IMG/VR virus record: IMGVR_UViG_3300043449_001534
Coordinates: 1 to 41,606 of that record
DNA from: a virus
Length of the DNA stretch: 41,606 nt
Reading direction: 5' to 3' (one strand)
Shown here: positions 24,990 through 41,606 of the stretch, one piece after another
How positions within the stretch are numbered: position 1 is the stretch's first letter
How the letters are laid out: each line of letters opens with the position of its first letter
Notes under the pieces: generated by a model
What the model was told of the DNA's origin: nothing
Databases searched by the model: none
What the model saw: the letters and a program-made list of their open reading frames with translations, nothing else
Program-made: the position numbers and the translations under genes

Positions 24990-25222
24990 TGCTTGAGATA
25001 ATAAAAATGCTTTCAATCGACCCATTCTATGGCCGATTGATGAAAAAACTCAGCACGGCAGACTTAGATATCATTCTATCGTTTTGCGAAAACTCAATCT
25101 CATTGGATCGAAATGAATTTGAGCATCGAGCGAATAGGTTTTTTATGGATAGGGAAAAACCTAAGAATTGGAAAATCATTTCCGAAATTCTGAGCGTCAT
25201 TAACGCAAGGCGAGTGATCTAA
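24989..25222 (+). CDS. Hypothetical small protein at end of rightward early operon
   Basis: Not recognised. 77 residues, helical, with DPFYGRLMKKLSTADLDIIL and FFMDREKPKNWKIISEIL. Its 3' end overlaps the 3' end of the leftward queC gene by 23 bp, with no terminator between them. Confidence 0.5.
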   Translation: MLEIIKMLSIDPFYGRLMKKLSTADLDIILSFCENSISLDRNEFEHRANRFFMDREKPKNWKIISEILSVINARRVI

Positions 25223-25709
25223 TCTCTCGGCAGTTTTGACAATCACATACCCTAAAGTCATTTTTATTCTGGTAACAGTTATAAAGGGCTTTAGGGTATT
25301 TTTTTTGCACAAAGGTAATTATCTTCCTTTTTCCCCAACCTGTTATTGGTAAATCAACTCTAATACGCATTAAGTAGCCGAATAGCTTTAAAGATACCCA
25401 ATTCGAATCCCTATACCGATCGAATAATGGGATAAGATTCCGCGACCCTATAATGATGTGCCCGTAGCCTAGCCGCTTAATCTCGCTTATAAAGAAGAAA
25501 TTCCGCCGCTCTTGATCATGGCTAAGATTCAGATTTACGACCCTCAAATCCCGTTTAAAGAAGCCTGAGAACGCCTCAGCCGCTCTCAGCTCATTCTCTA
25601 GATAGATTTGCCCATAGTTGATGAATATCAAATCGGCTTCGATATCTTGATTGAGTAAAAAACAAGCAGCCGAATCCCATCCACCGCTCAAAAGTATTGC
25701 AGTTTTCAT
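25200..25709 (-). CDS. queC: QueC-like 7-cyano-7-deazaguanine synthase (compact)
   Basis: Converts 7-carboxy-7-deazaguanine to preQ0 with ATP and ammonia. The PP-loop SGGWDS is at residues 8-13, followed by INYGQIYLENEL, and the last 30 residues hold four cysteines (YNCY, RVCDCQNC) that bind zinc in the family. At 169 residues it is shorter than bacterial QueC (about 220), mainly through a loss in the middle, so activity should be tested. Last gene of the cassette, coupled by ATGA. No amidotransferase domain is fused. Confidence 0.85.
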   Translation of the reverse strand: MKTAILLSGGWDSAACFLLNQDIEADLIFINYGQIYLENELRAAEAFSGFFKRDLRVVNLNLSHDQERRNFFFISEIKRLGYGHIIIGSRNLIPLFDRYRDSNWVSLKLFGYLMRIRVDLPITGWGKRKIITFVQKKYPKALYNCYQNKNDFRVCDCQNCREIRSLALR

Positions 25710-26068
25710 TTTAAAACCTCCCGCCCGAATTTGATCCTATAGCCGCTCAAAGGGTATAAAGGCATGGCCGAGAAGCGGCCGGTATGAGTGAACCAATCTG
25801 GAATAATATGCAGCAAATGTGCATAGCCTAGCCTCGGCATCATTAGAAATAAAAAAAGCGATACCCAAAGCGAATGGCAAAAGTGATAAAGATGAAACGA
25901 AAAAGCATCGACCCCTAGCGGATCAAATTCGATAGCCTGTCTCCTGATTCTGTACTCATTGCCGATCAAACTCAAATCAGGCCAGATACACCCAAGAAGC
26001 ATCAACCCTTGCGATGGGCATACGATCTCGGCGGCCACGCCTACTAACAAATGATATTTGAAATTCAT
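25706..26068 (-). CDS. YdjM-like membrane metal-dependent hydrolase
   Basis: 120 residues from the ATG at 26068, which overlaps the stop of the transglycosylase gene (ATGA). The layout fits the YdjM / DUF457 family: H6 in KYHLLVG, PD at 30-31 (GCIWPDLS), HLYHFCHS (H59, H62, H65), HIIPDWFTHTG (H87, D91, H95), with hydrophobic segments at about 67-78. The family is membrane-bound and poorly understood. Its place inside a preQ0 cassette suggests action on a base, nucleotide or envelope substrate, an inference only. Confidence 0.55.
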   Translation of the reverse strand: MNFKYHLLVGVAAEIVCPSQGLMLLGCIWPDLSLIGNEYRIRRQAIEFDPLGVDAFSFHLYHFCHSLWVSLFLFLMMPRLGYAHLLHIIPDWFTHTGRFSAMPLYPLSGYRIKFGREVLK

Positions 26069-26964
26069 ATAACTTGGCGCTCTTTCAGATGCCGGTGGGC
26101 GTGTATGAATAAATCGAGCTGCCAAGCGTGGCCAATGGCATTGTAAATACGAGTCCCAATTTTATTCTGAGCATCAATAGAATACTTAAGGAAAGCTAGA
26201 ATTGAATAAAAAATATTCCCCGTGAAGCGGTCTGGATTATCTAAACGGCTCAACCCTTTATTGCGCCACTTATCCAGTTTTTGAAGCTCTTTGATTTCAT
26301 CCATTTCAATTTTTAGAGACCGCATCAAAGAAATAATTTCCGGCTTTGGAAATGTCTTAAAATGCGAACGATCAAAACTCCTCATGCGCCCGTTACCATC
26401 ATAAAGCATCAGGTTGCCAAATTGGGCCGATGAGCTCCACGAGCTGGCATCGACTGAGTAGGGCTTATAATAAATCAGGTAATCGGGCCGAATGAAGGCT
26501 AGGTAATGAACCTTTTTGCCTTTGCTCCTTTTTAAACATTCGTTGGCAAATCTTAGAGGCTCTGAATTACCTTTGCCTTGGCTTTGAACGCCGCCAACAA
26601 ATACGTACTCATCCCTCGTTAGCAACTCATCGAAATAATTAAAATCATCGCCCCGAGTAAAAACAGGACTAACATTAAAGCCGCGATCCCTCATTATATC
26701 GAGATTCAGTTTTGTCTCCTCGGGCTTAAAAACAACATCTAGCTGAACAGCTCTCTCAAAACGGCTATACTCAATGGCCTTTAGAAATGAACAGTAGCCA
26801 TCCAATGTCACCTCATGGCCAGAATTATAGGCAGAGAAGGCGCCTGAATCAATAATTAGCCGATAGTCATCCGGATCCAATGTATTTAAAAGTCTCATCC
26901 ACTCAGCCGTATTTTTTTTGAAGTATGGATAAGCAATGAGCAAATTCATCCTTTTATCTAACAT
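26065..26964 (-). CDS. dpdA: DpdA-like DNA guanine transglycosylase (TGT fold)
   Basis: Expected to replace guanine in phage DNA with a 7-deazaguanine base. From the ATG at 26964 (after TTTGAGGGTG) it has 299 residues. TGT-like landmarks: IIDSGAFSAYNSG with Asp39, the counterpart of the TGT DSGGF motif; VQLDVVF with Asp76; VGGVQSQGKGN at 123-133; and PYSVDASSW with Asp172, where TGT has its catalytic nucleophile. The C-terminal zinc site of tRNA-guanine transglycosylases is absent, as in phage DpdA proteins. The surrounding preQ0 genes support the DNA-modifying role. Confidence 0.8.
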   Translation of the reverse strand: MLDKRMNLLIAYPYFKKNTAEWMRLLNTLDPDDYRLIIDSGAFSAYNSGHEVTLDGYCSFLKAIEYSRFERAVQLDVVFKPEETKLNLDIMRDRGFNVSPVFTRGDDFNYFDELLTRDEYVFVGGVQSQGKGNSEPLRFANECLKRSKGKKVHYLAFIRPDYLIYYKPYSVDASSWSSSAQFGNLMLYDGNGRMRSFDRSHFKTFPKPEIISLMRSLKIEMDEIKELQKLDKWRNKGLSRLDNPDRFTGNIFYSILAFLKYSIDAQNKIGTRIYNAIGHAWQLDLFIHAHRHLKERQVI

Positions 26965-27514
26965 GAACACCCTCAAAGGAAGTTTCGAGCAATCTGGCCT
27001 TGATAAAAATCAAAACTTCATCCTTGAGATCAGGCGGACACTCAATCGTTATCGTGGCCTTCTTTAATGGATCATCTTGGTGGGTAGCATCGGGGTCGAA
27101 ATCTGTCTCCCAATCGCCAACGACTAACGGACTAAGTTCAAGCTCATCGAATAAATCATCGGGAATGACCTGTTTAATCTCATCGAGAATAACCTGAAGC
27201 TCATCAGTAAAAAACCCTTCAATATGTTTATTATTTAAAACCACATTTAAAAGTTTTTCTTCATCCTCAGATAAATCCACATAAGTCACTGGAACATGGG
27301 TAAACCCCAACTCAACGGCCGCCTGTAATCTTTGGTGCCCGCCCACCAAAACCCCGCTCCTTTTATTTACAACTAAGGGCTGGGTAAATCCGAATTGCTT
27401 AATGGATCGTTTTAGGCCGGCCATAGCCTTTTTAGAAATCGCCCTTGGATTATACTCGCTAGGGTTAATCTCACCGATTGCGACTTCAACGACTGTTAAT
27501 TTATTTTCACTCAT
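26954..27514 (-). CDS. ParB/Srx-fold protein in the 7-deazaguanine cassette
   Basis: 186 residues. The N-terminal 90 carry a ParB-type domain: INPSEYNPRAISKKAMAGL, SIKQFGFTQPLVVN, VLVGGHQRLQAAVELGFTHV, the GHQR motif being the usual nucleotide-binding signature. The C-terminal half is acidic and unassigned. In bacterial Dpd islands a ParB-like protein (DpdB) works with DpdA, so it may assist base exchange. It is coupled to folE by ATGA and overlaps dpdA by 11 bp. Confidence 0.75.
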   Translation of the reverse strand: MSENKLTVVEVAIGEINPSEYNPRAISKKAMAGLKRSIKQFGFTQPLVVNKRSGVLVGGHQRLQAAVELGFTHVPVTYVDLSEDEEKLLNVVLNNKHIEGFFTDELQVILDEIKQVIPDDLFDELELSPLVVGDWETDFDPDATHQDDPLKKATITIECPPDLKDEVLIFIKARLLETSFEGVHVR

Positions 27515-28089
27515 TTTACTAACCTCATAAATTCTGATCTAGCCTCATCCTGCATAAACATTCCATAAATTGAACTTGTGATCATAGTGCTATTTTGTTT
27601 GCCCACCCCACGGCCACACATGCAAAGGTGTTTCGCCTCAACCACAACCATAACGCCTTTAGGCTTCAAAACCTCAACCATAGCGTCCTTAATCTGTTCG
27701 GTCATTTTCTCTTGAATCTGCAACCGCCTAGCAAAGACCTCGGCCAATCGAGCCAGCTTTGAAAGTCCAACGACTCTATTATCTGGAATGTAACCAATGT
27801 GTACCTTGCCCATGAATGGAATCATATGGTGCTCACACGTCGAATAAAACTCAATGTCCTTACAAATAATGATTTGATCATAGGTTCCCTTTTCAAAGGT
27901 TGTGCCTAAAATCGTTCGATAGTCCATGCCGTAGCCAGCAAAGAGTTCCTTCCAAGACTTAACGACCCGTCTAGGTGTATCTAAAACACCCTCTCGGTCG
28001 GGATTGTCACCAACCCGTCTAATAATTTCCCGTATCAGGTCTTCACTTTTAATCATTTGCAGGGGCCATTGAATTTCTAAATCTTTCAT
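27511..28089 (-). CDS. folE: GTP cyclohydrolase I
   Basis: Converts GTP to dihydroneopterin triphosphate, the first step to preQ0. 192 residues from the ATG at 28089, which overlaps the queE stop. The family core is intact: EGVLDTPRRVVKSWKELF, FYSTCEHHMIPFMGKVHIGY with zinc ligands Cys85 and His88, VVGLSKLARLAEVFARRLQI, and HLCMCGRGV with Cys155. ATGA overlap to the ParB-like gene. Confidence 0.95.
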   Translation of the reverse strand: MKDLEIQWPLQMIKSEDLIREIIRRVGDNPDREGVLDTPRRVVKSWKELFAGYGMDYRTILGTTFEKGTYDQIIICKDIEFYSTCEHHMIPFMGKVHIGYIPDNRVVGLSKLARLAEVFARRLQIQEKMTEQIKDAMVEVLKPKGVMVVVEAKHLCMCGRGVGKQNSTMITSSIYGMFMQDEARSEFMRLVK

Positions 28090-28685
28090 TTTATTCCTAA
28101 CCATTTATGAGTTTGCAGGTTTAATCGCCATTGCGGGTTCATCCTAATATAGGCTTCAATTTCCGTTATCGAATCAGCCATGCGCCCAAATTCCGGACTT
28201 AATAAAAGTCTTGTTCCTGGCTGGCGTTTCTTTTCAAAAAACTTTAACAAATCAAAATCAAAACCCTCATCAACCACAATCTTTAAATCGTTAATGACCG
28301 GCCAAACGTCGTCGTGAATAAAATAAACTGACTCTCGCTTCGGGCTACAAGTTACAAAATCAACCCCTTTAAGGATCGGGAACATCCCATTGGTTTCACA
28401 AGCGACCTTAAAATCCAATTCGATGAGCCAATCAATAACCGTCTGGCTGTCTTTATTGACCATTGGCTCCCCACCCGTCAAAACGGCCAAGGCAGATGGC
28501 TCCTCTTGCGCCACAGCTTCAAACTCAGCCCTCGTCCATTTCTTAAAGCTATTAAATTCCGTGTCACACCAAGCACACTTTAAATTGCAAAACGGCATCC
28601 TAACAAATAAAGCCCTACGTCCCCAGTTGGTTCCTTCGCCTTGAAAGGTCCAAAAAAGGTCATTTATCCTTACCTCATCCTTCAT
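28086..28685 (-). CDS. queE: 7-carboxy-7-deazaguanine synthase, radical SAM
   Basis: Makes 7-carboxy-7-deazaguanine from 6-carboxytetrahydropterin. 199 residues. TFQGEGTNWGRRALFVR precedes the iron-sulfur motif CNLKCAWC (Cys33, Cys37, Cys40), and LTGGEP (69-74) binds S-adenosylmethionine. The C-terminal LNLQTHKWLGI is typical of QueE. ATGA coupled on both sides. Confidence 0.95.
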   Translation of the reverse strand: MKDEVRINDLFWTFQGEGTNWGRRALFVRMPFCNLKCAWCDTEFNSFKKWTRAEFEAVAQEEPSALAVLTGGEPMVNKDSQTVIDWLIELDFKVACETNGMFPILKGVDFVTCSPKRESVYFIHDDVWPVINDLKIVVDEGFDFDLLKFFEKKRQPGTRLLLSPEFGRMADSITEIEAYIRMNPQWRLNLQTHKWLGIK

Positions 28686-29104
28686 TTAAACACCTCCACA
28701 TAGCAATTTGAAGTCTCCCATAACCTGATTTTCGGCACTGTAACGCCATACTCGGCCAACATCTTATTTGCCTTTACCAGAAGCATCTCTGCCAAGTTTT
28801 CGGCGGTAGGATTGAAAGGAACCTTGAAAATAGGCTTTGCCCCTTTACAGGCTTCAAGTAAATCAATGTCAGGGTCTATTTCCCAAAGAATCATTGTGTG
28901 ATCTAAATACTCGTCAACCCAAGCGCCAAACACCGTTTTAATGACTGAAAAGTCCACCACCCTACCCAACTCATCCAAACAAGCTGCCTCGCAGTAAACC
29001 TCAATCTTATATTCATGGCCGTGGAGGGTCCGACATTTTGATTCATGGTTCACGACCCTATGGCCGGCATCAAACTTTAAAAGCCTTATCGCCTGTGTTC
29101 TCAT
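28682..29104 (-). CDS. queD: 6-carboxy-5,6,7,8-tetrahydropterin synthase
   Basis: Second step of the pathway, acting on dihydroneopterin triphosphate. 140 residues. Zinc ligands His15 (FDAGHRV), His28 and His30 (CRTLHGHEY), catalytic Cys24 just before, VVDFSVIK, DHTMILW, NPTAENLAE, and a late WETSNC. First gene of the cassette, behind AAGGGGAAAGAA and a promoter. Confidence 0.95.
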   Translation of the reverse strand: MRTQAIRLLKFDAGHRVVNHESKCRTLHGHEYKIEVYCEAACLDELGRVVDFSVIKTVFGAWVDEYLDHTMILWEIDPDIDLLEACKGAKPIFKVPFNPTAENLAEMLLVKANKMLAEYGVTVPKIRLWETSNCYVEVFK

Positions 29105-41365: not shown

Positions 41366-41606
41366 ATGAGCACAGTTGCAATGAGTGGTGACGACACCAT
41401 CGTTATAAATAACAGAGTTTTTACTGATTTGGCTGATGGGGACGTGGTAAATCTTACCTTCCCAAATGATATTGCTAACATCAAGACTGGTAAAAATGGA
41501 AACTCAATCTATGGCTTTAATGCCACAGGTAAACAATGCGAAGTTAAAATTAGGGTCATTCGGGGTTCAGCTGACGATAAATTTTTGAACGGCCTTCTCG
41601 TTTCCC
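41366..41606 (+). CDS. Tail tube protein, true start (3' end cut by the window end)
   Basis: This is the same gene as the one entering at base 1. The real start codon is the ATG at 41366, preceded by a strong ribosome binding site (AAGGGGGATTAA, 41354-41365) and 10 bp after the sheath stop codon. Reading continues in frame into the duplicated segment (41381 equals base 1). Joined across the circle, the protein is 151 residues. Confidence 0.85.
   Translation, partial: MSTVAMSGDDTIVINNRVFTDLADGDVVNLTFPNDIANIKTGKNGNSIYGFNATGKQCEVKIRVIRGSADDKFLNGLLVS
41381..41606. repeat. Terminal direct repeat of bases 1-226
   Basis: The last 226 bases repeat the first 226 with one difference (T at 99, C at 41479, both Asn codons in the tube gene). 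This is what an assembly of a circular or circularly permuted, terminally redundant genome produces. It lies inside a coding gene, so it is more likely an assembly overlap than a true physical terminal repeat. Unit length is about 41,380 bp. Confidence 0.9.

Follow-up and report, generated by a model that had tools for sequence, protein, structure and literature searches.

A phage genome analysed here as one stretch of 41,606 bases (the window, which is the whole of its IMG/VR record) carries a seven-gene operon that likely serves 7-deazaguanine modification of the phage's DNA. We consider it probable that the operon leads from GTP to a 7-deazaguanine and into the phage's own DNA, through a compact QueC-like enzyme with a YdjM-like partner (the mini-QueC/YdjM module) and a ParB-assisted DpdA. 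The gene content, active-site residues, TGT fold and conserved gene pairings described below come from the sequence itself. 7-Deazaguanines in phage DNA resist restriction and are a known way to evade bacterial defences, and the list of known modified phage bases is still growing. The QueC subfamily described here, with its unrecognised, metalloprotein-like partner, is a candidate new route to such a base, and the module would be a new part within known phage 7-deazaguanine modification systems.

The operon and its core pathway

The two ends of the window (positions 1-226 and 41381-41606) are the same 226-base sequence save for one mismatch, so the genome is very probably complete at about 41,380 bp; it is classed as linear, yet this end overlap indicates that it is probably circularly permuted. 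Genes for sheath, baseplate, portal, capsid, TerL, Gam-like and RecT-like proteins are those of a contractile-tail phage. The cassette DNA had no match among 50,697 public phage records.

A preliminary description had reported seven head-to-tail frames on one strand, joined by five ATGA overlaps and one 11-bp overlap, and this layout proved accurate. The frames run on the minus strand from 29104 to 25200 (Table 1), with ATGA junctions at 28685/28682, 28089/28086, 27514/27511, 26068/26065 and 25709/25706 and the 11-bp overlap ATGTTAGATAA at 26964/26954. Overlaps of 4 bases occur at five of the six cassette junctions compared to 11 of 56 other same-strand neighbours (Fisher p=0.003), a background count that depends on our gene choice for the window genome. 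Because such overlaps are common genome-wide, coupling by itself is only modest evidence for shared function. Another phage locus (L049) repeats the gene order, as queD-queE-folE-parB-dpdA-queC-terS.

Table 1. Genes of the cassette, in order along the minus strand of the window.
Gene	Product or assignment	Position	Strand	Length (aa)	Match or basis
queD	6-carboxytetrahydropterin synthase	28682..29104	-	140	PTPS 5.4e-29
queE	7-carboxy-7-deazaguanine synthase, radical SAM	28086..28685	-	199	phrog_2076 9.3e-27
folE	GTP cyclohydrolase I	27511..28089	-	192 (from coupled ATG)	PF01227 1.4e-70
parB	ParB-fold protein, proposed DpdB-like partner of DpdA	26954..27514	-	186	ParB_N PF02195 1.2e-9
dpdA	Putative DNA-guanine transglycosylase	26065..26964	-	299	phrog_887 1.6e-30
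ydjM	YdjM-like / zinc-phospholipase-C-like protein	25706..26068	-	120	Assigned via homologues
queC	mini-QueC, compact QueC-like, predicted ATP-dependent enzyme	25200..25709	-	169	PF06508 7e-7

Judged by their motifs, folE, queD and queE appear intact. FolE passes the NF006825 equivalog cut-off (2.2e-76) and keeps the zinc ligands C90, H93 and C161, numbered from an alternative ATG at 28104 upstream of the coupled ATG at 28089. QueD falls under the cut-off of TIGR03367 (6.7e-22) and keeps H15, C24, H28, H30, D68, H69 and E130, which are nearly invariant in 35 aligned sequences. QueE, also under its equivalog cut-off, keeps the CNLKCAWC cluster motif, QGEG, TGGEP and SPK. A separate QueF, sought in the complete genome, gave a single PF14489 match, the T-fold inside FolE, in agreement with the earlier statement that the gene is absent. 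This absence argues only against preQ1, and does not fix the product.

The phage dPreQ0 systems of Escherichia phage CAjan and Mycobacterium phage Rosebush (Hutinet et al., 2019, PMC6884629) have FolE, QueD, QueE, a QueC-family protein and DpdA in common with the window, and like it they are without an amidotransferase and without QueF. The window differs from them in its compact, non-canonical QueC with a YdjM-like partner, in belonging to a contractile-tail phage, and in its permuted gene order. In mycobacteriophage Funsized (Bclasvirinae), a ParB-like gene, dpdA and que genes adjoin the terminase.

DpdA and its ParB-fold neighbour

We compared a predicted model of DpdA (pLDDT 72, pTM 0.65) with solved structures and found that its best VIA-align match was the archaeal TGT 1iq8 (Z 11.6, 228 residues, 4.1 A). 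TGTs made up 49 of the 50 matches listed, and the only other entry among them, a tryptophan synthase barrel at Z 10.7, lies within tie range. Foldseek on the same model returned only generic TIM barrels (about 2e-3), so the structural kinship of DpdA with TGTs rests on VIA-align. Residues D43, H157 and D176 (numbered from the TTG at 26976; D39, H153 and D172 from the ATG) are invariant in 41 DpdA sequences. The preliminary description had called this gene dpdA-like and allowed that structure prediction might place the protein at 26065 outside the TGT fold; with TGTs as its closest entries and its active-site residues invariant, the assignment stands.

The DpdA loci compared here came from three IMG/VR scans, a fourth scan with QueC, and public phages. 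The sole match of the first DpdA scan (L002) was discarded as a chance match within an intein-bearing terminase-like frame. Two to three dpdA paralogues, in tandem or nearby, are present per cassette in L067, L069, L077, L079, L084, L094 and L124.

Of 104 dereplicated loci, 66 have a ParB gene as the immediate neighbour of dpdA (upstream in 59, downstream in 7). A further 8 have one at some distance within the stretch, and in 30 none was found; these proportions are biased upward because the scan queries were taken from ParB-linked loci. The upstream ParB gene and dpdA can share a 4-base overlap in 34 of the 59 loci. On the DpdA tree the ParB label clusters, with the window clade and a gut-phage clade nearly always ParB-linked. 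In the 9g-type clade, none of the 21 rows shows ParB next to dpdA, indicating that ParB is not universally needed. At L014, L020 and L026, the ParB-dpdA pair is accompanied by a gene for a Vut_1 (YhhQ-like) transporter and no que genes were detected in the stretch; retention of the pair at these loci suggests that ParB goes with insertion of the base and not with its synthesis.

DpdB, the ParB-like protein of bacterial dpd systems, is an ATPase that serves insertion, although certain clusters may be able to do without it (PMC12839542), and a role for dpdB has been suggested in mycobacteriophage CRB2 (PMC6392294). The bacterial dpd cluster resembles the window in pairing a TGT-family enzyme (DpdA) with a ParB-fold protein (DpdB). 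Unlike that cluster, the window has its base-synthesis pathway inside the operon, no DpdC or restriction genes were seen in the cassette, and its ParB protein had no DpdB match in PADLOC, whose profiles have limited sensitivity here (best match MTase_II, 7.7e-20). By analogy, we interpret the window ParB protein as a DpdB-like protein that partners DpdA. The earlier proposal that this gene belongs to the same process as its neighbours, which had been drawn from tight coupling, is thus borne out by adjacency to dpdA across loci and not by overlaps alone. The conserved ParB-dpdA pair also provides a broad set for asking whether help with DNA transglycosylation is a general role of ParB-fold proteins.

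A compact QueC and its YdjM-like partner

The window QueC failed the canonical test, scoring 23.8 bits against TIGR00364 compared to a cut-off of 150.3, while control phage QueCs passed it (165.8 bits for L049 and 192.9 bits for L047); further divergent phage QueCs, in L004 and L140, also fall under the cut-off. It belongs to a single clade of eight rows (support 99/93), which we call mini-QueCs. Counted from the ATP loop, the first three mini-QueCs measured span 141 to 162 residues, compared to at least 178 in complete others. Mini-QueCs keep SGGx[DE]S, Y32, Q34, E40, R69-N70 and YxDSN, and the SGGWDS, Y32, R69-N70 and Y99 of the window are invariant in all eight save for D or E in the loop. 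Equivalents of Y35, R99 and Y131, positions that are essential in E. coli QueC (PMC13329287), are present in the window protein. Its zinc motif, C-Y-(x)8-C-x-C-x2-C, has altered spacing relative to the canonical C(x)8CxxCxxC with Y189; the window keeps this variant cluster, and in the other seven of the eight mini-QueCs a short [YF][ST][ST][EK] tail replaces the Cys4 cluster. None of the eight mini-QueC records yielded a further QueC, in a search whose reach the fused QueC of L136 itself falls below, and the complete window genome holds no QueC besides the mini-QueC. In the public phage records, the window QueC had no match at E 1, and the QueC of L143 and the fusion of L133 had weak partial matches only.

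Cap9 is a type IV CBASS ligase that joins 7-carboxy-7-deazaguanine (CDG) to protein, and QueC-like enzymes serve both CBASS and Qat defence via protein modification. Among solved structures, the mini-QueC profile matched Cap9 best (9nto_B, 3.9e-10), with QueC behind at 1.5e-7, and Cap9 was the sole such match when the window protein alone was the query. A tree places Cap9 with the mini-QueC clade at 87/85, a grouping that is suggestive only. Like the mini-QueCs, Cap9 is a compact QueC-family protein of similar length with the Y/FxQ(x)5E spacing and a CDG-recognition Tyr and Asp; this pair reads CDG in Cap9 (PMC13279940) and is invariant in mini-QueCs. The partner of Cap9, Cap10, is likewise of the TGT family. 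Mini-QueCs differ from Cap9 in their que/dpdA operon context, in having a YdjM-like partner instead, and in the missing Cys4 cluster of the seven. A CD-NTase (PF18144) was not found at E<=0.1 on the eight mini-QueC records, of which the window's is complete and most of the others are fragments. The PADLOC 'QueC' profile was dropped as a Cap9-specific marker, as two canonical QueCs match it better. Mini-QueC also connects the base chemistry of phages to the QueC-like enzymes of CBASS and Qat defence.

The YdjM-like protein of the window matched no library profile, Pfam at E 0.1 included, and was placed through a YdjM-QueC fusion in L027, with whose N-terminal domain it shares 40% identity across 112 aa. 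Within its family, PF00882 matched seven of eight members and PF04307 five of eight, all sub-threshold; the best Pfam matches were 2.4e-4 (21.1 bits versus a gathering threshold of 29) and 5e-5. Alignment to E. coli YdjM by hhalign gave E 3.2e-5. The family shares the conserved His/Asp, PD, HS and HxxxD motifs of YdjM (PF04307) and zinc-dependent phospholipase C (PF00882), and differs from both in being shorter, in having library matches that are all under cut-off, and in being tied or fused to QueC. H6, D31, E38, H65, H87, D91 and H95 are invariant in all eight proteins, consistent with a plausible metal-dependent hydrolase-like site. The single-sequence fold was poor and uninformative (pLDDT 54), and the family profile found no relative among solved structures. 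The window protein as sole query returned nothing from viral contigs, genome contigs or phages; its relatives surfaced only through DpdA and mini-QueC neighbourhoods. It is unlikely to be DpdL, DpdM or DpdN, because it had no match at E 1 in the 50,697 public phage records, where the L027 fusion had none at E 0.1.

A YdjM-like partner accompanies all eight members of the mini-QueC clade. The two form one protein in four of them (L027, L133, L135 and L136), and the cassette of L050 has the order parB-dpdA-ydjM-queC. A scan with three short QueCs had added the L133, L135 and L136 fusions and the neighbouring pairs of L137 and L143; L134 is a near copy of L133. Elsewhere among 111 QueC loci (duplicates included), the YdjM profile had no match. 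The same loci require four changes of YdjM label on the DpdA tree compared to a single mini-QueC clade, indicating that the YdjM-QueC pair travels with QueC and not with DpdA. As the mini-QueCs are one clade, the link with YdjM is one origin that has been kept, and not many independent events. We therefore propose the YdjM-like protein as a putative obligate partner of the compact QueC. That its gene serves the same process as the rest of the cassette, as claimed in the preliminary description from the overlaps, is upheld by the fusions to QueC in four phages. Profiles detected no DpdA on the records of L137 (a 139 kb contig) and L143, and modification of DNA may therefore not be the purpose of the module in every case.

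The proposed route and the inserted base

The route that we favour is a prediction with respect to every activity, to which base is formed, and to both the metal site and the function of the YdjM-like protein. In it, FolE, QueD and QueE would convert GTP to CDG. Mini-QueC together with the YdjM-like metalloprotein would activate the CDG carboxylate with ATP and carry the activated CDG to the final or near-final base. DpdA would then exchange guanine in DNA for this 7-deazaguanine, assisted by the ParB-fold protein in a role analogous to that of DpdB. As product, dPreQ0 or the corresponding amide dADG is most probable, with a different CDG amide also possible. Of the earlier account, a 7-deazaguanine DNA-modification cassette therefore stands, while dPreQ0 as the expected base is not secured: the last enzyme is non-canonical, and Cap9, to which it shows a resemblance, employs another nucleophile.

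The main competing explanation, to which we give roughly one chance in three, is an ordinary dPreQ0 system in which the short QueC is a divergent preQ0 synthase and YdjM is an unrelated passenger or a membrane anchor. Minimal FolE/QueD/QueE/QueC/DpdA sets in phages do yield dPreQ0 (PMC6884629), and the window QueC retains the essential QueC residues along with Y189 and a variant Cys4 cluster. However, YdjM stays with every mini-QueC, fused in half of them, across varying dpdA types and gene orders; its seven invariant His, Asp and Glu residues favour a functional metal site over a passenger role, and the Cys4 cluster has been lost in the mini-QueC relatives.

It is unlikely, in our estimate, that the cassette makes a base new to DNA, with mini-QueC acting as a Cap9-like ligase that couples CDG with an amine that is not ammonia, the YdjM-like domain supplying or processing this amine, and DpdA with ParB inserting the resulting CDG amide. 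The ranking of Cap9 above QueC among solved structures, the tree grouping, the invariant CDG-recognition pair and the sub-threshold matches of the partners to zinc-dependent phospholipase C are consistent with it, but the grouping is without strong support, no CD-NTase was found on the mini-QueC records, and the example of a phospholipid head group as the amine is chemistry by analogy. Were this reading true, phages would be disguising their DNA with the enzyme chemistry by which CBASS activates immunity. Queuosine synthesis also uses FolE, QueD, QueE and QueC, and tRNA is a substrate of TGT folds, yet a cassette that supplies host tRNA queuosine or folate chemistry in place of phage DNA modification is very improbable given a complete genome without QueF and a TGT-like gene that belongs to the phage DpdA family phrog_887 and adjoins a ParB-fold gene.

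Other DpdA cassettes contain further recurring genes. Vut_1/YhhQ-like transporters, which probably import a precursor, adjoin dpdA in L014, L020, L021, L022, L026, L031, L102 and L103, and in L014, L020, L022, L026, L102 and L103 the transporter replaces detected que genes. SAM methyltransferase genes are present at L034:1379-1951 (Methyltransf_23-like), L039:6587-7159 and L085:2205-2858; in L034 and L039 the gene occupies the queC position and queC was not found, which suggests methylated CDG or another base. A phosphoribosyltransferase-like protein was matched in 46 loci (e.g. L050:7635-8033 and L037:1822-2184), either as a separate gene or apparently fused to FolE, judging by long folE frames. 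DUF6884 recurs as well (L022:2218-2628, L036:7391-7813, L063, L033, L073, L100, L056, L064 and L106); the L022 protein is weakly DpdC-like by PADLOC, and these proteins may hydrolyse dPreQ0 to dADG. In several phage cassettes, a radical SAM protein adjoins the QueC-like gene (L140:4938-5936, L146:4915-5940, L094 and L091).
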